A DNA stretch of 64,000 nucleotides from Meghimatium bilineatum (taxonomy: Eukaryota; Mollusca; Gastropoda; Stylommatophora; Philomycidae): assembly GCA_034231615.1 (NCBI GenBank), contig CM067306.1, positions 61,897,475-61,961,474 of the forward strand. Direction: 5' to 3'. Positions 2,440 to 53,054 of this stretch are shown here, piece after piece (the first letter of the stretch is position 1; each line of letters opens with the position of its first letter). The notes below the pieces were generated by a model. It saw nothing but the letters and a program-made list of their open reading frames with translations. It was not told the DNA's origin and did not search any database. The translations under genes were made by a program, and so were the position numbers.

Positions 2440-3270
2440 TATATAATAGAACTCCGATTATCCAAATTAATTGGGCATTGGGCCGATTCGGATAATCGAA
2501 AATTCGAATAATTGAATAAAGCTCAGGAATAAAGCAAAACAGTGTACATACATTCAATCATACATTGAAATGAACAGAATTTTATTAATAAAAGTACAGT
2601 AATATGTAAACAAATATGTATTGCAAATAAACCACACACACTACAGTACTGTAAAATATGCAAAATTACATAAATGGCACATATGTACAGTAATACATTG
2701 TACAGTGTATGTACATACGTAAATCAAGTGAATAAGTTCTTTTCAATAAAATCTGTTCAATAAATATATTTACATGTATCTCACTTGAACATCTCGAGTA
2801 GCGTACGTTGCCTTTTTCATCACTTTTCATCACTTTTCTAGATGAACATCCATCTTCTGTTTGCAGTGAATTCACAAAGCTTAAAATTTTTTCATTGTTA
2901 GTTTTAATATGAGAGATTGTAGCTGCTCCCACACCAAACCTCTCTGCCAGTTGCTTTCCAGGCACACCTTTATTTAACTGATTAATAATTTTCACTTTAT
3001 CACTAACTGACAAAACAGCACGTTTACGTCTTGTACTCATTGCACTTAATCCAGCAATGAAAAAAAAACTAACACTAAATAACGAAATAGTAAACACAGT
3101 ACGAATCGAATAGAGGGAATTGCACTTAAATACTCATTGCACTTAATCCAGCAATGAAAAAAAAACTAACACTAAATAACGAAGTAGTAAACACAGTACG
3201 AATCGAATAGAGGGAATAGTGCAAATTGAATAGTGTCTGAATAAAACTGACAAAAATTTAAGTAAGGGCA
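2440..3270 (-). mobile_element. pogo/Tigger-like DNA transposon fragment with CENP-B HTH
   Basis: A - strand frame from 3039 reads MSTRRKRAVLSVSDKVKIIN, then QLNKGVPGKQLAERFGVGAA and TISHIKTNNEKILSFV. This is the CENP-B/pogo N-terminal helix-turn-helix of transposases. The frame ends soon after, so the DDE catalytic domain is absent. TAGAACTCCGATTATCC at 2446 looks like a pogo-type terminal repeat. An 80-bp direct duplication (3037-3119 and 3134-3217) lies just upstream of the start codon. Confidence 0.75.
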
Positions 3271-12709: not shown

Positions 12710-12870
12710 AAACTATGACACATTAAGATGCACATACTGGCCTTCTTATAAACCAATGAATGTTAAACTTTATGGTACAAAACAAGAAATGGAAAACACT
12801 GTCCAATTTATACAAGAAACAACACTGCAGATATAGACATTATTAGCGAACGAAAGAAGAAGAAGTATAA
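12710..12870 (+). mobile_element. Old I-group LINE 3' end
   Basis: Reads TYWPSYKPMNVKLYGTKQEM, then ENTVQFIQETTLQI and the tail AGCGAACGAAAGAAGAAG, homologous to the end of copy B (TYWPEETTLESKLYGT...). Upstream 12200-12700 may be its decayed body but I cannot show it. Confidence 0.65.
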
Positions 12871-20844: not shown

Positions 20845-20935
20845 CGAGGGCCATCTCCAGAAAACTCTTCTACCCCTGATGCTGAAAGGCAACAAAGGGT
20901 TTAGCAAATAGATATATAGATAGATAGACAAATCA
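20845..20935 (+). mobile_element. LINE family 2, 3' end with ATAG tail
   Basis: GGCCATCTCCAGAAAACTC ... CCCCTGATGCTGAAAGGC, then AAATAGATATATAGATAGAT. Matches 15265-15345. Confidence 0.65.
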
Positions 20936-20994
20936 TATACAAGACAAATCACAAACAGGACAAATCACACATAAGACAAATCATATACAAAACA

Positions 20995-21069
20995 CCCCAT
21001 CGAGGCCAGCACCGTGAAGTGGTGATGGGGCTTAATTCAGCCATCAGGGGCTGGAAACCAAGGCTGGTC
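20995..21069 (+). ncRNA. HDV-like self-cleaving ribozyme, LINE copy A
   Basis: Nested double-pseudoknot order fits: P1 CCCCATC (20995-21001) with GATGGGG (21024-21030); P2 GGCCAGC (21004-21010) with GCTGGTC (21063-21069); P3 ACC/GGT around loop GTGAAGT; P4 CAGCC/GGCTG (21038-21053); J4/2 CCAAG with the candidate catalytic C at 21058. P3 runs straight into P1 as in HDV. L3 AAG and CTT after P1 could form P1.1. The cleavage site equals the element's 5' end given by its duplication. Odd: the first base is C, not the usual G. Confidence 0.75.
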
Positions 21070-22263
21070 GGTCAGTCCCACCTGAGCAGGACCACAGTCC
21101 TGCCCAAGTACGTAATGTGCTGAAGACAGAGGCAACCAGTCAAAAGGTGCACAATTAATCAGGATGTCACGTACAAAACACAATGGGAACATGTCTATAT
21201 CTAATAATAGTTATGGTGCCTGCCCTGTGGCGGATTTTCAGGCAGGGACGGTGCCAGGCCCTATACCTCGAAAGGGCCCGACCTCAATTAATTACTGGAA
21301 GTCCTTCTCAACTGCCCCCAGGAGCCAGGGGAATAGAACTGCTGGCCAAACAATGCCAATAAACATTCAGACCCACGTGAAAGAAATACTAAGTGAGGAT
21401 GAACAGAACAGAGTGCAGCGAAGGACAGTCACCCTCAGTTTCCTGGACGAGGAATATCCACAAGACATATTAGTCAGAGTATACACAGATGGGTCAGCAC
21501 AGAATGCAGTGAGGAATGGAGGTGCAGGTGTATATATAGAATATCCACACAAGCCTAGAGATACAATCAGAACACCAACAAGGAAATTCTGCAATAATTA
21601 TGATGTAGAAATCCAAGCAATTATGGTGGCAACTAAAAAGCTGCTGAACTCCAATCCTGGCCCACAGCTCGTGGTATTCCTGACACATGCAAGGTTAGTG
21701 CTTCAAACTCTCCAGTCTGGAAAACTAACAAACTTACAAAAACTACTTAATGAACTGTCTTGCCAGTATAGGGTAACCATGCAGTGGATACCCTCTCACT
21801 GTGAAATACTAGGAAATGAAAAAGCAGACCAACTGGCTAAGGAAGGTGCTGCTGAAGACCAACCAGATGTGCCAATCACCATCAGAAAAAACAGATGATC
21901 AAGTCAATAAGAAAGCTACAAACACCAACACAAGATGACTATCATATTATGAACAGATCAGAACAAGTTATAATTCTACGCCTCAGAACGGGACACAAAC
22001 GACTCCGCAGTCACATGTATACAAAGTTCAAGATTGGCAACACGGCCATGTGTACATATGGATAGGCAGCACAGAGTACCAAGCATATACTTCAAGTTCT
22101 AAGTATGAAATTCTGAGGCAGACATATTGGTCAGAGGAAACAACACTGGAATCACAGCTCTATGTGCCACTGTATGAACTACAAAAGACAGTAAGTTTTT
22201 ATTAAGGAGACAGAATTACAGATATAGACATGTTTCAAGTGAACGACGGAGGAATAAGAATAC
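20995..22263 (+). mobile_element. I-group LINE, internally deleted copy A
   Basis: Full 5' end (HDV-like ribozyme) and full 3' end but no endonuclease or RT: about 2.8 kb is missing, joined near 21350-21357 at short homology (AATGCCAATA). The 8-bp duplication ACAAAACA (20987-20994 and 22264-22271) flanks it. A 244-codon frame (21164-21898) fuses the first ~65 residues (MSRTKHNGNMSISNNSYGAC...) to the RNase H domain (VYTDGSAQNAVRNGG, WIPSHCEILGNEKADQLA). Clearly a recent relative of copy B. Confidence 0.85.
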
Positions 22264-22303
22264 ACAAAACAAATCACAAGTAAGACAAATCATAAGAAAG
22301 ACA

Positions 22304-22378
22304 CCCCATCGAGGCCAGAACCTTGAAGTGGTGATGGGGCTTAGTTCAGCCATCAGAGGCTGGAAACTAAGACTGGTC
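22304..22378 (+). ncRNA. HDV-like self-cleaving ribozyme, LINE copy B
   Basis: Same fold as copy A: P1 22304-22310 with 22333-22339; P2 GGCCAG (22313-22318) with CTGGTC (22373-22378); P3 ACC/GGT (22320-22322, 22330-22332); P4 CAGCC/GGCTG (22347-22362); J4/2 CTAAG (22367-22371), the form common in retrotransposon HDV-like ribozymes. Differences from copy A fall in loops and joiners, except one P2 end pair lost. The 5' end coincides with the 12-bp duplication boundary. Confidence 0.8.
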
Positions 22379-22472
22379 GGGCACTCCCACTCGAGCAGGA
22401 CCATAGTCCGGCCCAAGTAAGCAGAGTGCTGAAGACGGAGGCAACCAGCCAAAAGGCTCACAGATAATCAGG

Positions 22473-23134
22473 TTGCCACGCATAAAACACAATGGAAACA
22501 TGTCTGCATCTAATAAACGTTATGGTGCCTGCCCTGTGGCGGACGTTCAGGCAGGGACGGTGCCGGGCCCTATACCTCGAAAGGGCCCAACCTCAGTTAC
22601 TGGAAGTCCTTCTCAATTGCCCCGAGGAGCCAGGAGGCAAGGGAATAGAGCTACTGGCCAAACAAACAAACGACCAATAAAAATAATGCACTGGAATGCT
22701 GAGGGTGTCAACAGTAAAAGAGATGGATACAGCAAAAAATTGGAACTTGAAAATGTCCTCAGTGAAGAACAAGTAAATATATGCTGTATCCAAGAAACAC
22801 ACCTCAGCAGCGACATAGCCTTCAAAATCAGAGGCTACCAGTGCTACCGATCTGACCGAAAAGACAGGCGAAAGGGTGGAATTCTGACACTAGTTAAAAA
22901 CAATATCAGCGCATGTCAGCTGGAAGTATACATGGACGGGGCAGAATACCAGATGCTCCACCTAAAAACAGACAGTGCAGAATTCCATCTCCTGAACTAC
23001 TACTGCCCAAATGATAAACCATTGGCACTAGACACAATTCCAGACAAAGAAAGGCTTATGGTGTGTGGTGACTTCAACAGCCACTCTCAGAGCTGGGGCT
23101 ACGATCAGATCATATCGACAAGAGAGGTGAGGAA
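22473..23134 (+). CDS. LINE copy B: N-terminus and APE endonuclease part
   Basis: Opens MPRIKHNGNMSASNKRYGAC and reaches the endonuclease at NKRPIKIMHWNAEGVNSK. Motifs CCIQETHLSS and MVCGDFNSHSQSWGYD are intact. The meaningful frame shifts by one position near 23113-23130, after which the other frame reads EELESWQDENNLILINQP and GGSDHRPVF; the 22473 frame beyond that point is spurious. Confidence 0.8.
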
Positions 23135-23398
23135 CTTGAGAGCTGGCAGGATGAAAATAATCTCATTCTTATTAACCAGCCAGCAGACTCACCAACCTTC
23201 TACTCGAGAGCATGGCACACCACCTCTACACCAGACCTGGCATTCTACTCACCAGGCCTGGAATGGAACATCACACGCGTCGTTGGAAAGCAGCTTGGGG
23301 GTAGTGACCACAGACCAGTATTTCTGGAAATTCACAATGAATATACCAAGGACAGCAGCACGCTCACTAGGTGGAACTATAAGAGGGCAGACTGGAAA

Positions 23399-26329
23399 AT
23401 GTACCAGCATTTAACCAGTGTTCTAGCTAAGGACATGAACTTGGACAAAGACATCAATAGAGCAGTGAGTGAATTTAATAGATGTATACTACATGCTGCT
23501 AGTAAAACCATACCCAGGGGGGCACGCAAAAACTACAAACCCTACTGGAATGATGAACTGGAAAAGCTGCAAAATGAGATGGAAACATCTAGAAAGCAGG
23601 CCGAGAACAGACCTAGCCAAGAACATCACAACAAATATCAGCAAACAAAGGCTAAATTTCAAAGAGCCAAGTTACAAGCCAGACGGAGCAGCTGGAAAGA
23701 AAAAACAGAGTCGCTGAACCTAGAAAGAGATACTAGGAAATTATGGAAACTTGTAAAACAACTAAATGATGAAGGTACAGGGAGAAATACCAGGATCACA
23801 CTTTATAAAGATAGAAACATTTTAACAGGTAAACATGCAGCTGATTACTTTGCAGATTCCTTTGCAGAAGACAATAACGTCAAAGTCAGCCCAGACAAAC
23901 AACAGGAGGTTCGAGAGAACCAGCAAAACATTGGACAAGGTGAACCTATACCTGAAGTCATGGAGGCACCAATCACAATGAGAGAACTGGAGCATGCAAT
24001 ATCCAAATTGAAAATGAAAAAGTCCCCTGGAGCTGATGGAGTGTCCAATGAAATGATTAGAAACCTGGGAAGTGCAGCAAGAGCAAAGCTACTGCAGATC
24101 TTTAACACAAGCTGGTCCACAGGTAATGTACCACAGGCGTGGAGAGAAGCAATAATGATACCACTCCTCAAATCAGGAAAAGATGGCAACACAGTCTCCA
24201 ACTACAGGCCCATCAGCCTCACAAGCTGTCTATGTAAAACAATGGAACGCATTATCAATCTTAGGATGCAGTGGTACCTTGAAAGTGAAAACCTTCTGGT
24301 ATCACAGCAAGCAGGTTTCAGACAGTGCTACTCTACTGAAGATCAGGCAACCTACCTCTCCCAAGAGATTGAGGATGCCTTCCAAGAAAAGAAACTGGTA
24401 CTAGCAGCATGGATAGACCTCAGGAAAGCATTTGATAAGGTCTGGAAAGAAGGGCTCCTAAAGAAATTGCGAAATTGCAGGGTTAGCTCAAGAATGTACA
24501 AATGGGTAAAAGCATACCTGCATAATAGAAGAGCCAGGGTACAATTAGATGGTCGCAAGAGCAAGAAAGTTCTACTGCGTCATGGAGTCCCCCAGGGAGG
24601 AGTCCTGTCACCCACACTTTTCTTGGTTTACATCAATGACCTAGTTGCTGAACTACCACACGGGATCAAAGTGGCAATGTATGCTGACGACCTGGTGATC
24701 TGGTGCACGGAAGAACATGCAACAGTGGCCACTAAACAAATACAAAGAGCTATCGATGCCCTAACCTTATGGGCTAATAGATGGTGCGTCAGCATTAACA
24801 CAGATAAGTGCAGCACTACACTCTTTACCCTCTCACCAAAACAAAAAGCTGGTCATATCAAGATAGATGGAGAGCTCTTGAAAGAAGACAAACAACCCAC
24901 ATACCTCGGAGTTACTTTTGATGATAAGCTGACATGGAAGCAGCACATAAACAAAGCAACAACAAAAGCCAGGAGGAAGCTAGCTATCCTGAGAAAACTA
25001 AGTGGAACCACATGGGGAGCCAGTGGAAATATACTCAGTAAAGTTTACCAGCAAGGCATAAGACCACACCTGGAATACGGTTCAGCTGCGTGGTGTCCTG
25101 CATCAAACACCACATTACAAGATCTAGATAAAGTGCAAAACCAGGCACTTAGAATAATGTTGGGAGCAATGAAATCAACACCCATAGCAGAGATGCAGAA
25201 AATGGGAAGAATGCAAACACTTGGCGAACGCAGAGACACAAAAGTACTAATTCAAGCAGAAAAGTTTCAGTGTATGCCAAGTCATCCAATGAAGGAAAGA
25301 TTCCAAAATCTAGCAATGGGACGACTGAAAAGGAGCAGCTTTATCCATCAAGCTAAACGACTCCGTAGACAACTTACAGACCTACCTGAAGTTGGCAGCC
25401 CCTTAAGGTCTGTACCAGAGCAAACCCCGTGGAGTGAAAGCCATGGAATGCCAATATACATTCAGACCCATGTGAAAGGAATACTAAGCGAGGACGAACA
25501 GAACAGTGTGCAGCGAATGACAATCACCCTCAGTTTCCTGGATGAGGAATATCCACAAGATATATGGGTCAGAGTGTACACAGATGGGTCAGCACAGAAT
25601 GCTGTGAGGAATGGAGGTGCAGGTGTATATATAGAATATCCACACAAGCCTAGAGATACAATCAGAACACCGACAGGAAAATTCTGCAATAATTATGATG
25701 CAGAAATCCAGGCAATTAGTGTGGCAGCTAAAAAACTGCTGAACTCCAACTCTGACCTACAGCCTGTGGTATTCCTGACAGATGCAAGGTCAGTGCTTCA
25801 AGCTCTCCAGTCTGGAAAACTAACAGACTTAAAAAAACTACTTAGCGAATTGTCTTACCAGTATAGGGTAACCATGCAGTGGATACCCTCTCACTGTGGA
25901 ATACCAGGAAATGAAAAAGCAGACCAACTGGCTAAGGAAGGTGCTGCCGAAGACCAACCAGATATACCAATCACCTACCATCAGAAAAAACAGATGATAA
26001 AGTCAATAAGAAAGCCACAAACACCAACACAAGATGACTATCACAATATGAACAGATCAGAACAAGTTATAATTCTACGTCTCAGAACAGGACACAACCG
26101 ACTCCGCAGTCACATGTATACAAAGTTCAAGATTGGCAACACGGCCATGTGTACATGTGGACAGGCAGCACAGAGTGCCAAACATATACTTCAAGAGTGT
26201 TCTGAGCATGAAACGCTGAGGCAGACATATTGGCCAGAGGAAACAACACTGGAATCAAAACTCTATGGGACACTGTATGAACTACAAAAGACAGTGAGTT
26301 TTATTAAGGAGACAGAATTACAGATATAG
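23399..26329 (+). CDS. LINE copy B: RT-RNase H polyprotein part
   Basis: 976 codons starting at an internal Met after the endonuclease. RT blocks: KKSPGADGVSNEMI (finger), NYRPISLTSCLCKTMERI, AAWIDLRKAFDKVW (motif A), GVPQGGVLSPTLF (motif B), MYADDLVIW (motif C). RNase H: VRVYTDGSAQNA, AEIQAI, FLTDARSVL, WIPSHCGIPGNEKADQLA, with the D-E-D-D set present. The end, YGTLYELQKTVSFIKETELQI, recurs in older LINE fragments here. The frame has no stop, so the protein may be active if the upstream shift is not real. Confidence 0.9.
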   Translation: MYQHLTSVLAKDMNLDKDINRAVSEFNRCILHAASKTIPRGARKNYKPYWNDELEKLQNEMETSRKQAENRPSQEHHNKYQQTKAKFQRAKLQARRSSWKEKTESLNLERDTRKLWKLVKQLNDEGTGRNTRITLYKDRNILTGKHAADYFADSFAEDNNVKVSPDKQQEVRENQQNIGQGEPIPEVMEAPITMRELEHAISKLKMKKSPGADGVSNEMIRNLGSAARAKLLQIFNTSWSTGNVPQAWREAIMIPLLKSGKDGNTVSNYRPISLTSCLCKTMERIINLRMQWYLESENLLVSQQAGFRQCYSTEDQATYLSQEIEDAFQEKKLVLAAWIDLRKAFDKVWKEGLLKKLRNCRVSSRMYKWVKAYLHNRRARVQLDGRKSKKVLLRHGVPQGGVLSPTLFLVYINDLVAELPHGIKVAMYADDLVIWCTEEHATVATKQIQRAIDALTLWANRWCVSINTDKCSTTLFTLSPKQKAGHIKIDGELLKEDKQPTYLGVTFDDKLTWKQHINKATTKARRKLAILRKLSGTTWGASGNILSKVYQQGIRPHLEYGSAAWCPASNTTLQDLDKVQNQALRIMLGAMKSTPIAEMQKMGRMQTLGERRDTKVLIQAEKFQCMPSHPMKERFQNLAMGRLKRSSFIHQAKRLRRQLTDLPEVGSPLRSVPEQTPWSESHGMPIYIQTHVKGILSEDEQNSVQRMTITLSFLDEEYPQDIWVRVYTDGSAQNAVRNGGAGVYIEYPHKPRDTIRTPTGKFCNNYDAEIQAISVAAKKLLNSNSDLQPVVFLTDARSVLQALQSGKLTDLKKLLSELSYQYRVTMQWIPSHCGIPGNEKADQLAKEGAAEDQPDIPITYHQKKQMIKSIRKPQTPTQDDYHNMNRSEQVIILRLRTGHNRLRSHMYTKFKIGNTAMCTCGQAAQSAKHILQECSEHETLRQTYWPEETTLESKLYGTLYELQKTVSFIKETELQI

Positions 26330-26528
26330 ACATGTTTCAAGTGAACGAAAGAAGAAGAAGAAGAATAAGAAAGACAAATCATAAGTAAGGCAAATCATAA
26401 GTAAGGCAAATCACAAGTAAGACAAATCACATACAAAACAAATAAGATAGCACAATAAATTGTATATAACCAAGACAAATCACAAAGTTTGTGTCCGATG
26501 GTATATTGCCTGAGAGTGTTAGTCTAAC

Positions 26529-26634: not shown

Positions 26635-27375
26635 ATGTTGTAGTCATGCATGATGTTAATGACATGTGATGTTATAATCATGCATGATGTTCTAGTCACA
26701 TGTGATGTTATAATCATGCATGATGTTCTAGTCACATGTGATGTTATAATCATGCATGATGTTCTAGTCACATGTGATGTTATAATCATGCATGATGTTC
26801 TAGTCACATGTGATGTTATAATCATGCATGATGTTCTAGTCACATGTGATGTTATAATCATGCATGATGTTCTAGTCACATGTGATGTTATAATTATGCA
26901 TGATGTTCTAGTCACATGTGATGTTATAATTATGCATGATGTTATATTCAGATGTGATGTTCTAGTTACATGTGATTTCTAGCAACATGTGATGTTCTAG
27001 TCACTGCTGATATTCTAGTCACTGCTGATGTTCTAGTCCCATGTGATGTTTTAGTCCCATGTGATGTTCTAGTCATGTTTGATGTTCTAGTCACATATCA
27101 TATTTCTAGTATTATGTAATGTTGTAATCTAGTAATGTGATGTTCTATTCACATGTATGTTCTAGTCACGTATGATGCTCTCTAGGCACATGTGATGCTC
27201 TCTAGGCACATGTGATGTTCTAGTCACTGCTGATGTTCTAGTCACTGCTGATGTTCTAGTCATAGTCACTGCTGATGTTCTAGTCACAAGTGATGTTCTA
27301 GTCACATGTGATGTTCTATTCACTGCTGATGTTCTAGTCACTGATGTTTTAGTCACATGTGATGTACTAGTCACA
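26635..27375. repeat. ~36-bp minisatellite decaying to 18-bp units
   Basis: GATGTTCTAGTCACATGTG then ATGTTATAATCATGCAT, regular at 26660-26940, then shorter CTGATGTTCTAGTCA units. Just upstream of ITPRID exon 26529-26603. Confidence 0.9.
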
Positions 27376-50960: not shown

Positions 50961-52491
50961 TGTGTGTGCATCATGTAATTGTGGCTGAAGTTTAAATGAT
51001 CTTCCTCATAACACCACTCCAGGTCTGGATGGTCAGTGTAATCTTTATCATCATCATGAGCCACGAATTGAGACATACTTTCGCTATTGTTCGTAACATC
51101 ACTTTCATCTATACTTTCACTATTGTTCGTAACATCACTTTCATCTGAACTCCCAGCTTCTGAAACTGAGTTTCTCTCATCTTCATCCTCGATATAGAGA
51201 TTATCACAAAAGTAATCAGCGTCACAAGGCATGATATCGCAATCATTAAATCTACAGCTGGCATCACCTACACACCCACCAATCAGAAAGCAACCATTGC
51301 TACTAGCGTGACAATCACTCAACGGAAAACAGCTACCCATGTCAGTCAAATTTCTATCTCTAATCTTAAATCTGTCTGTCATGTTCATTACAGAAATATT
51401 ACAGCTTTCGCAGAAGTTTTCAAGACTGTCTCTTTCATCTGAATCATTATTTTCAGTCACATGACTAGAACACAATCCCTTATCACCGTTGTCATGACAA
51501 CAGTCATCAATAGGCCATTGACAGTGCATTGTCTGCATTGACGGGTCATTGGTAGAAGTGACTGAATTCATTTCAGTCTGATGCACCCTGGCGTCTCTGG
51601 CATCAACGCTAGAAGTAATATCTGCAAAAGTATGATTGTCTAAAGATCTCATATTTTCTGTGGCACAGATCACATGAGCAGATGCCATAGATATTCTTGC
51701 TAAATGAGAATCACAGTTGACAAGGTCCACAGCAGGCTTCATATCTGATGACATGTTGCCGATAGCAGATTCTGTGCTGGAGTAATGTTCTGAATATTGC
51801 CCAGGGTGAGAGTTAGTGTCTGAAAGAGATGCTTGTGACTGGTTGCACAAGCACTTGTGTTGTCTATGCAATTCAGTTTGTGATCTTCTGTTGCGTGTGG
51901 TTTCTGCAAGAAGAAAGCATGGCTGATCCCATTGATCATCAAAGCAGACATTGTTCCAGGTAGATAAAGTTGCAACAGCTAGTTTTGCTGTCAAACTTGA
52001 GCAAGAGATAGTCTTGTGTGAGCATTCGATGTGCGTGCCACTGAATTTATTTTGTAAATTCTGATCTTGAGGAAAATGTATGGATTTTTTAGCTTGTGCG
52101 TGATCAGAATTTTTCTCAAATGTTTCATAATTAGATTTATTCATTTTTGTAGCTGCCAATTTCATAAATTTAGTATTCCAAAACCTGCAGAATTCTGTCT
52201 TTCTTCTTATTTCACTAGCATGATGGGTAGCAATTACATGAAGCTTTTCTGGCATAGCAGACTCAATAGAGTGTTCCTGGGCACATGCTGACATCTTAGA
52301 CATATCCTCTTTTCTCAGGTCTCCGTTTCATCCTTGAAGCTTCCCCCTCTTTTCTTGTCCGATGTGATATTAACAAATTCTAGACTCTCCAGTTTTGTTT
52401 CATCTTGGACTTCATTACTATATAATGAACATTCCTGGTTCTTTTGACTGTCATTGGTATCTTGTCTATCTAACTTGCCTGGCCCCTGGTC
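50582..52491 (-). other. Large open stretch in ITPRID intron (possible alternative exon)
   Basis: A strong acceptor (TCTCTTACATTGCAG at 52492) opens onto about 58 codons in one frame (QGPGKLDRQDTNDSQKN...). A 573-codon frame offset by one base then begins before 52303. It reads as a disordered Ser/Asp/Asn/Cys/His-rich protein (e.g. SVSEAGSSDESDVTNN) and ends in a coding-like minisatellite (VHPHSSSVDHTTNSLSADF). One extra base near 52325, in a short A run, would join both frames. No good donor is visible at the end. The upstream exon (phase 1) would meet a stop within nine codons here, but joins 43979 perfectly. It could be an alternative exon with assembly errors, a decayed exon or a separate small gene. 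I do not recognise a domain. Confidence 0.4.
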
Positions 52492-52631
52492 CTGCAATGT
52501 AAGAGATACACAGAAGCACTTGGATCCCTGAGTATTGAAGAAATAAAGAGGTACATCTCTAGTCAACAAGGTGTTCAGGTCAACATACCCATCATATGAA
52601 CTCAAGTAAAACCCTTGAAAACAGAACCCAC

Positions 52632-52933
52632 CTGAACGTTTTCTTGGGAGTGGCATCACAGCCGAGGTGGCTGCGCTGGTATTTGTTGCTGCTGTTGTTG
52701 AGACCTTCTCTGGTACAGGTACTGCTGCTCCTATGTCCTCCTCTAAACACTCATCCTCCTCTTCCTCATTACAGCCAGGCGGGACAATGCCATAAGCCCG
52801 TGATGGGTGATGCAGAAATCTCTCTGGGACACGAACTAAACTAGGAACCAAATTCTGCGTCTCTCCACCAAAGCCGAGACTGAGAAGCATCTGTTCTGGG
52901 TCAACCTGTCTGTCATTCAGGAGCTGCTCCAGG
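52632..52933 (-). CDS. ITPRID2: ITPRID exon with IP3R-binding signature
   Basis: The acceptor is TTCTCTCTGATTTAG and the best donor TTCAG|GTGGGT, ending in phase 1. It reads SLEQLLNDRQVDPEQMLLSL, GFGGETQNLVPSLV, then RVPERFLHHPSRAYGI. This matches the start of the KRAP_IP3R_bind domain of ITPRID and TESPA1 (DPEE-x-L-x-LGFG ... R-[IV]-P-x-RF). After that the exon turns acidic (CNEEEEDECLEED) and Ala/Thr-rich, unlike vertebrate members, so the rest of the domain is divergent or missing. The frame stays open beyond the donor to 52315, so intron retention is possible. Confidence 0.85.
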
Positions 52934-53054
52934 CTAAATCAGAGAGAATTGATAGCTTGTAAGTTCTGTCACCTTTAAGCTCTGTCTACTGTAAATTCTA
53001 TCTTCTGTAAGTTACTCTATACTGTAAGCTCCTCTTTTTGATAGATCAATACTC

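Follow-up and report, generated by a model that had tools for sequence, protein, structure and literature searches.

A window of 64,000 nucleotides, the whole stretch of Meghimatium bilineatum DNA analysed here, holds two LINE copies that open with the same seven bases, CCCCATC (at 20995 and 22304), which raises the question of whether the start of this element encodes an RNA that sets its own 5′ end. The first-pass annotation had read the shared start as an HDV-like ribozyme capping an I-group LINE. From sequence comparison and computation, we conclude that the first 76 nt of this LINE family very probably encode an HDV-like self-cleaving ribozyme, which would free the element RNA at base 1; we favour this reading because of a fold-compatible sequence, its conservation, pairing-preserving changes and flush 5′ ends. 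The features concerned are listed below, with ribozyme parts as predicted.

20995 to 22259, + strand: LINE copy 1, internally deleted, element bases ~1-362 joined to ~3144 onward
20983 to 20994, + strand: copy 1 5′ target-site duplication ATATACAAAACA (8 exact nt; 12-nt alignment with one mismatch, by eye)
22260 to 22271, + strand: copy 1 3′ target-site duplication ATACACAAAACA (8 exact nt; 12-nt alignment with one mismatch, by eye)
20995 to 21070, + strand: HDV-like ribozyme domain of copy 1, 93.5 bits with model R1 (copy 1 is in the R1 training set)
Stems of this domain: P1 20995-21001/21024-21030; P2 21004-21010/21063-21069; P3 21011-21013/21021-21023; P4 21038-21042/21049-21053
Other parts of this domain: L3 21014-21020; CNRA (CCAA) 21058-21061
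22304 to 26364, + strand: LINE copy 2, 4.06 kb, both ends present
22292 to 22303, + strand: copy 2 5′ target-site duplication ATAAGAAAGACA
26365 to 26376, + strand: copy 2 3′ target-site duplication ATAAGAAAGACA
22304 to 22379, + strand: HDV-like ribozyme domain of copy 2, 102.9 bits with model R1 (copy 2 is in the R1 training set)
Stems of this domain: P1 22304-22310/22333-22339; P2 22313-22318/22373-22378; P3 22320-22322/22330-22332; P4 22347-22351/22358-22362
Other parts of this domain: L3 22323-22329; CNRA (CTAA) 22367-22370
22500 to 26329, + strand: single EN-RT-RNase H coding region of copy 2, in two overlapping open frames (22407-23414 and 23072-26329)
22500, + strand: probable start ATG of copy 2, by comparison with protein P0002
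9270 to 10379, + strand: third copy of the LINE family, 5′-truncated and without ribozyme, sharing 95.7% identity with copy 2 in the 3′ quarter

Both copies follow the order P1(7)-GA-P2-P3(3)-L3(7)-P3′-P1′-J-P4(5)-J4/2-P2′, so that the nested double pseudoknot P1-P2-P3-P1′-P4-P2′ is present; P1 has 7 bp, and the 3-bp P3 leads directly into P1′. The HDV order proposed for the shared start of about 75 nt is borne out by both the sequence and our descriptor, and the proposed J4/2 sequence holds as well, with CCAA in copy 1 and CTAA in copy 2. In domain numbering, P1 comprises 1-7/30-36, P2 10-15/70-75, P3 17-19/27-29 and P4 44-48/55-59, with L3 at 20-26 and CNRA at 64-67 in J4/2. The copies differ at 6 of 75 positions (16, 20, 41, 54, 65 and 69); four of these lie in loops, as had been said of most differences, but 16 and 69 form the inner pair of P2. 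This pair also decides the length of P2, which had been put at 6-7 bp: the seventh pair, 16/69, is C-G in copy 1 only, and P2 has 6 bp in family A, that of the window copies, because C16 occurs in 41 of 42 aligned copies but so does A69. A minimum-free-energy program, which cannot model pseudoknots, favoured a competing structure for copy 2, and copy 1 barely beat shuffled sequences (z -0.83).

The target duplication of copy 2 matches at 12 of 12 nt, and that of copy 1 comprises 8 exact nt, or 11 of 12 when one mismatch is allowed (by eye). A 16-bp tandem array (approximately GACAAATCATAAGTAA) at 20926-20994, 22269-22303 and 26365-26443 surrounds both copies, which lie in the same phase of it (by eye) and have separate target duplications. 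Because both lie in this array, the duplications of the two window copies taken alone are modest evidence for the position of the 5′ end. A single insertion that was later duplicated in tandem was considered and rejected, given the separate target duplication of each copy. Elsewhere in the window, 12765-12865 (+) and 60919-60856 (-) are diverged pieces, 72-77%, that resemble the LINE 3′ end, and 2666-3133 (-) is an open frame resembling the CENP-B/Tigger helix-turn-helix type.

The protein encoded by copy 2 carries the Pfam domains PF03372/PF14529 (EN, APE-type), PF00078 (RT) and PF00075 (RNase H), and its probable start codon lies ~195 nt from base 1 of the 4.06-kb element. It is encoded by a single ORF without a gag ORF1, and this organisation is the defining feature of the Ingi clade. 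A protein search scored 7,993 candidates; among the matches listed, the best 120 of 1,375, the closest was an unnamed protein (90%), and the named ones included Bradybaena similaris (74% and 51%), Littorina saxatilis (57%, P0012) and Batillaria attramentaria (52%, P0069). The window also contains, at 52315-52938 (-), a host-gene exon related to an ITPR-interacting domain protein, whose ORF matched one protein only, from Arion vulgaris, a slug (63% across 51% of the query). These matches indicate a gastropod host, perhaps of the Stylommatophora. The identification of an I-group LINE in a mollusc therefore stands, with EN, RT and RNase H all present, snail relatives among the named matches and an exon match to Arion vulgaris. 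In the molluscs studied, Nimb and Ingi are described as the sole I-superfamily clades, beside an unknown clade of one cephalopod (excerpt of PMC10294476); Batillaria is credited with 273 Ingi elements and no Nimbus, and Littorina saxatilis with neither (excerpt of PMC11203168). By exclusion, rather than from an RT tree, the element is probably an Ingi LINE. Viral contigs gave no relative of the element by protein, alignment or three DNA patterns. An alignment against prokaryote contigs gave nine distant LINE loci in bacterial records (24-31% identity), five of them in bivalve symbionts by name; these are probably host contamination, and no ribozyme domain was found in the nine by descriptor or R1, although their 5′ ends may be missing.

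We searched the 1.61-Gb assembly (32 contigs) for further copies. The first 156 nt of copy 1 returned 40 scored of 1,903 candidates, 38 matching from base 1 and 2 from base 2, and 39 loci of this search were fetched. A protein query returned 36 scored of 138,721 candidates with near-identical scores, 35 of them without an internal stop; all but one of the 36 have a frame of 1,304-1,305 aa, the exception measuring 3,046. From these we fetched both ends of ten young copies whose 1,305-aa frame is open; they were chosen on their protein, regardless of ribozyme or 5′ end. In all ten, a target duplication of at least 11 nt abuts P1 base 1 without an intervening base. These duplications are 11-14 nt long, except in L102, where the 18-nt duplication is weaker evidence because the site is a tandem repeat; the junction is ambiguous by one base in three of the ten, since the match extends one base further. 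Bases 1-4 read CTCC in eight young copies and CCCC in two, and the sequence CTCCATCGAGACCAG is found in 8/10, with L096 and L098 deviating at base 2 and L096 also at base 12.

The 3′ end is present in 26 of 43 older or window copies, and 17 of these 26 have a flush duplication of at least 7 nt, measuring 10-12 nt in 15 of the 17. The nine others are L018, L019, L023, L026, L033, L038, L047, L048 and L049; L040, with an 11-nt duplication, stands outside the 26 because its alignment chain was broken. L018 and L019 are a single duplicated locus, as their identical upstream flanks indicate. We compared the upstream flanks of 53 copies (42 A copies, the diverged copy L056b, which is left out of the 42-copy A counts, and the ten young copies). 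Besides L018/L019, similarity among the 53 was confined to the two window copies, which have the array in common, and to L036/L051, where one repeat occurs out of register; conserved sequence therefore does not extend 5′ past P1. Extensions past base 1 were thus looked for and none was seen in the copies examined, and the flush genomic 5′ end at P1 base 1 that the first-pass annotation had noted in the window recurs in 10/10 young and 17/26 older copies. Its further statement, that the duplications confirm the cleavage site, needs narrowing: they fix the start of the integrated RNA but do not prove cleavage, because a precise internal start site is a rival explanation.

The cytosine at the predicted catalytic position of J4/2, C64, is C in all 42 aligned A copies, A66 is likewise found in 42/42 and A67 in 39/42, and the whole CNRA is intact at its ungapped place in 37 of 42. 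Starting from a diverged copy in L056, we obtained a further set, B (466 candidates, 40 scored). Between the groups the P3 consensus changes from ACC/GGU in A to UCC/GGA in B, so that pair 17-29 is inverted from A-U to U-A, and P2 pair 11-74 is G.U in old A, A-U in young A and G-C in B. An alignment of 55 rows (39 copies from the B query, L056b, and 15 A copies out of 42, the window pair among them; young copies stand outside it) has 92.5% of its cells paired in the proposed structure, whereas registers slid by 1-3 columns pair at 25-53%. It holds 22 double-changed cells against 8.4 in shuffles, with 0/500 shuffles as high, although one slid register also has 16 such cells. In the same alignment, pairs with a double change (6 vs 4.2, 94/500 shuffles as high) and further pair types (21 vs 19.6, 151/500 as high) do not rise above shuffles, and the single P3 pair 17-29 supplies 15 of the 22 double-changed cells, which makes this effectively one event between two groups. 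Because shuffles ignore relatedness, pairing at the level of subfamilies is the safer statement. In four subfamily consensuses all 21 stem pairs are standard, despite 4-10 of the first 75 bases differing from old A; when substitutions were placed at random, all pairs were kept in 17,028 of 200,000 trials with 4 changes, in 851 with 9 (as in subfamily B2) and in 496 with 10 (as in B1). The absence of pairing changes, which would have spoken against the ribozyme, was not what we found, given the P3 A-U/U-A and P2 swaps between subfamilies.

These data bear on three other explanations of the domain. An internal promoter, of the type found in other LINEs, could start transcription at base 1, in which case the 76 nt would be promoter and the fold a by-product. 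We regard this as unlikely, even with a precedent in Pr77 of L1Tc, which combines the roles of Pol II promoter and ribozyme and carries CGTG at +25 to +28 (excerpt of PMC4748587). CGTG is found at domain positions 19-22 in 34 of the 42 A copies, but the B consensuses read CTTG at that place, and a promoter leaves unexplained the pairing-preserving changes (P3 A-U to U-A; P2 G.U to A-U or G-C). Initiation at an internal promoter is expected to give scatter in the start site or cap-derived bases, whereas there is no extra junction base in any of the ten young copies. The promoter and ribozyme roles are, moreover, compatible with each other.

The domain might instead be a conserved RNA structure for another step, such as binding of the element protein or translation initiation, that resembles HDV or is a dead ribozyme; this appears very unlikely to us. 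R2 protein is described as binding pseudoknotted RNA (excerpt of PMC12222951), and ribozymes of this kind have been proposed to act in an IRES-like way (excerpt of PMC8256844). L3 and P1.1 of the A family also deviate from HDV. A U.G pair in L3 is described for the HDV core (excerpt of PMC3386971); L3 base 1 (G20) is G in 37 of 42 A copies, so the HDV-type pair is absent from the A family, and it is possible in the B consensuses, which have U20/G25. In the HDV register, P1.1 would comprise at most one G-C pair (G22-C37) with an adjacent U.U; of 54 rows, 45 have G-C and 2 have G-U at this candidate (C37 in alignment column 38), none of them changed on both sides, and on its sequence the P1.1 of the domain looks weak. 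Against this, a structure with another role does not predict that P1 base 1 is the genomic 5′ end in 10/10 young copies. Among the A copies, C64 and A66 are kept in 42/42 and A67 in 39/42.

A descriptor of the HDV fold, composed after the candidate had been seen, gave starts in the window at exactly 20995 and 22304. Its other matches in the window are at 26862 (with P4), at 26898 (without P4) and at one minus-strand site without P4; 26862 and 26898 sit inside a 36-bp satellite and are taken as chance. Shuffled windows (173, one strand, 11.07 million positions) gave 90 starts, or 10 under stricter limits. Chance resemblance in a repeat-rich window, suggested by the extra matches in the satellite, is barely credible given that only 13 of 550,012 composition-matched shuffles anchored at bases 1-3 match, that the domain recurs in scored genome copies and diverges with pairing preserved, and that there is no match in stretches of another LINE, family C, or in the nine bacterial-record loci, whose 5′ ends may be missing.

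A self-cleaving ribozyme is the reading we prefer, and it allows us to hypothesise a mechanism for the 5′ end of this element. The element would be transcribed, probably within a longer host transcript, and its RNA would fold into P1-P2-P3-(P1.1)-P4. The J4/2 cytosine at position 64, in CNRA, may then catalyse scission directly 5′ of P1 base 1, releasing an element RNA with a 5′-OH. With the cut 5′ of the ribozyme, every new insertion would again contain the ribozyme, and reverse transcription that reaches the end of the RNA would yield full-length copies starting at base 1. Catalysis, read-through transcription and the 5′-OH end are what we infer from these observations, which suggest that the elements free their own RNA from neighbouring transcripts by self-cutting.

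The covariance-model check proposed for the domain did not identify it: no Rfam HDV model matches at Rfam's own thresholds, and with E allowed up to 10 no HDV-class model matches on the correct strand. The sole HDV-class match was drz-Agam-1 (RF01787), of the same ribozyme class as the slug domain, on the wrong strand with E 3.1. Earlier search criteria have been described as too restrictive for ingi-type ribozymes (excerpt of PMC4035085).

HDV-like ribozymes are known at the 5′ ends of the LINEs R2, R4, Dong, baggins, RTE and L1Tc, and that end is the cleavage site in R4, Dong, baggins, RTE and some R2 (excerpt of PMC3774820); R4, Dong, baggins and RTE are other elements, likened here by description and not by sequence. 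The closest parallel we describe is L1TcRz/Pr77 of L1Tc, NARTc and SIDER (ingi clade), a 77-nt HDV-like ribozyme at the extreme 5′ end that starts CCC, in a LINE with EN, RT and RNase H whose deleted non-autonomous elements retain the ribozyme; target duplications of L1Tc-type elements, at 7-11 nt (excerpts of PMC4035085 and PMC4748587), are comparable to those of the slug LINE. The T. cruzi L1Tc 5′ primer starts CCCTGGCTCAGCCGG (excerpt of PMC4748587). A C at position 1, which the first-pass annotation had called unusual, is accordingly a shared feature, because L1Tc, with its described HDV-like ribozyme, starts with C as well. The hosts differ, a trypanosomatid as against a gastropod, and the letters compared are those of a 15-nt primer only. 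Trypanosomatid ribozymes are reported to differ from those of HDV and R2 in the orientation of P1 GC pairs and in P1.1 (excerpt of PMC4035085).

R2 shares the HDV-like order, and its P3/L3 core, CC-UCCUCGU-GG (excerpt of PMC5035012), resembles CC-UUGUCGU-GG in group B2. The two cores differ at two bases, for which the partner bases here are CU. In HDV these two L3 bases form P1.1, and G22-C37 could replace that pair, reversed. R2 has a restriction-like endonuclease and targets 28S rDNA, whereas the slug LINE has an APE-type EN and scattered targets. To our knowledge, ingi-clade examples of such ribozymes come from trypanosomatids only. No published HDV-like ribozyme of a mollusc LINE or animal Ingi element was found in the titles and abstract starts searched, which does not imply absence from print. 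Judged by its sequence, the domain is very likely a ribozyme of a known kind in a new host lineage, the gastropods.

Besides copy 1, short internally deleted elements occur in this genome, and they retain the domain. In sixteen of 43 copies, L018 and L019 being a single locus, ~190-375 nt from the 5′ side are fused to the terminal 35-190 nt, and L050 shows a similar joining around an insert. With a common junction (~210/4017) and flush duplications of 10-12 nt, L027, L031, L032 and L044 look like a mobilised non-autonomous family. Short elements of this kind have parallels in NARTc, RIME and SIDE (excerpts of PMC4035085 and PMC4748587), and our data suggest that the ribozyme plus the 3′ end is enough for mobilisation, as in NARTc.

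The same domain also stands in front of different LINEs. Matches of set B, except the query itself, end between query bases 69 and 87, and a downstream motif divides the set into B1 (10 sequences) and B2 (12), with 17 in neither; B1 was sampled through the B ribozyme. The B1 and B2 consensuses agree at 75 of 76 ribozyme bases but beyond the domain at 37 of 79, where they are unalignable; sharing reaches about base 86 (by eye, consensuses). Between old A and B1, 65 of 76 ribozyme bases and 68 of 86 beyond agree. One B1 copy aligns with A over the first 500 nt (69.8%), and one B2 copy over 82 nt only. The LINE behind the B2 region is a different one, about 28-34% identical in protein to copy 2, and matches P0002 at 28-50% in pieces; the B2 5′ region precedes its EN at C7:42470812, C3:59401202, C1:74637646 and C14:27300952, among others (coordinates compared by eye). 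A comparison of B1 and B2 proteins gave no match, the B1 copy being without the corresponding stretches. Among B2 copies chosen by downstream sequence alone, the R1 domain is found in 20/20, with scores of at least 62.7 bits in 19 and a 31-bit remnant in L139; L133, L138 and L140 carry deletions (by eye). The R1 domain is likewise present in 10/10 young A copies.

Because B1 and B2 have near-identical ribozymes on bodies that do not align, we consider it an evenly balanced proposition, drawn from these sequences, that the ribozyme is an exchangeable 5′ module swapped among the LINE families of this genome. The cap could have been exchanged, with the bodies kept, by template switching or by recombination close to the 3′ edge of the ribozyme. 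Unusually strong constraint is an alternative source of the B1/B2 identity; since old A and B1 ribozymes differ at 11 bases, exchange is the explanation we prefer. Family C is another LINE of the same genome, with frames up to 1,345 aa (L119-L124). Four of its fetched copies start at one sharply defined, common 5′ end, and the family gave no descriptor match in five stretches and no R1 match in six. Its 5′ end, ACGCATGGTTTGCG..., can form a long hairpin with a downstream CCATGC (by eye).

If the ribozyme is real, HDV-like 5′ processing would extend to probable Ingi LINEs of animals. With young intact copies at hand, the 5′ processing of a recently active animal LINE would be open to direct study, and one cap common to unrelated bodies would make module exchange between LINE families testable.
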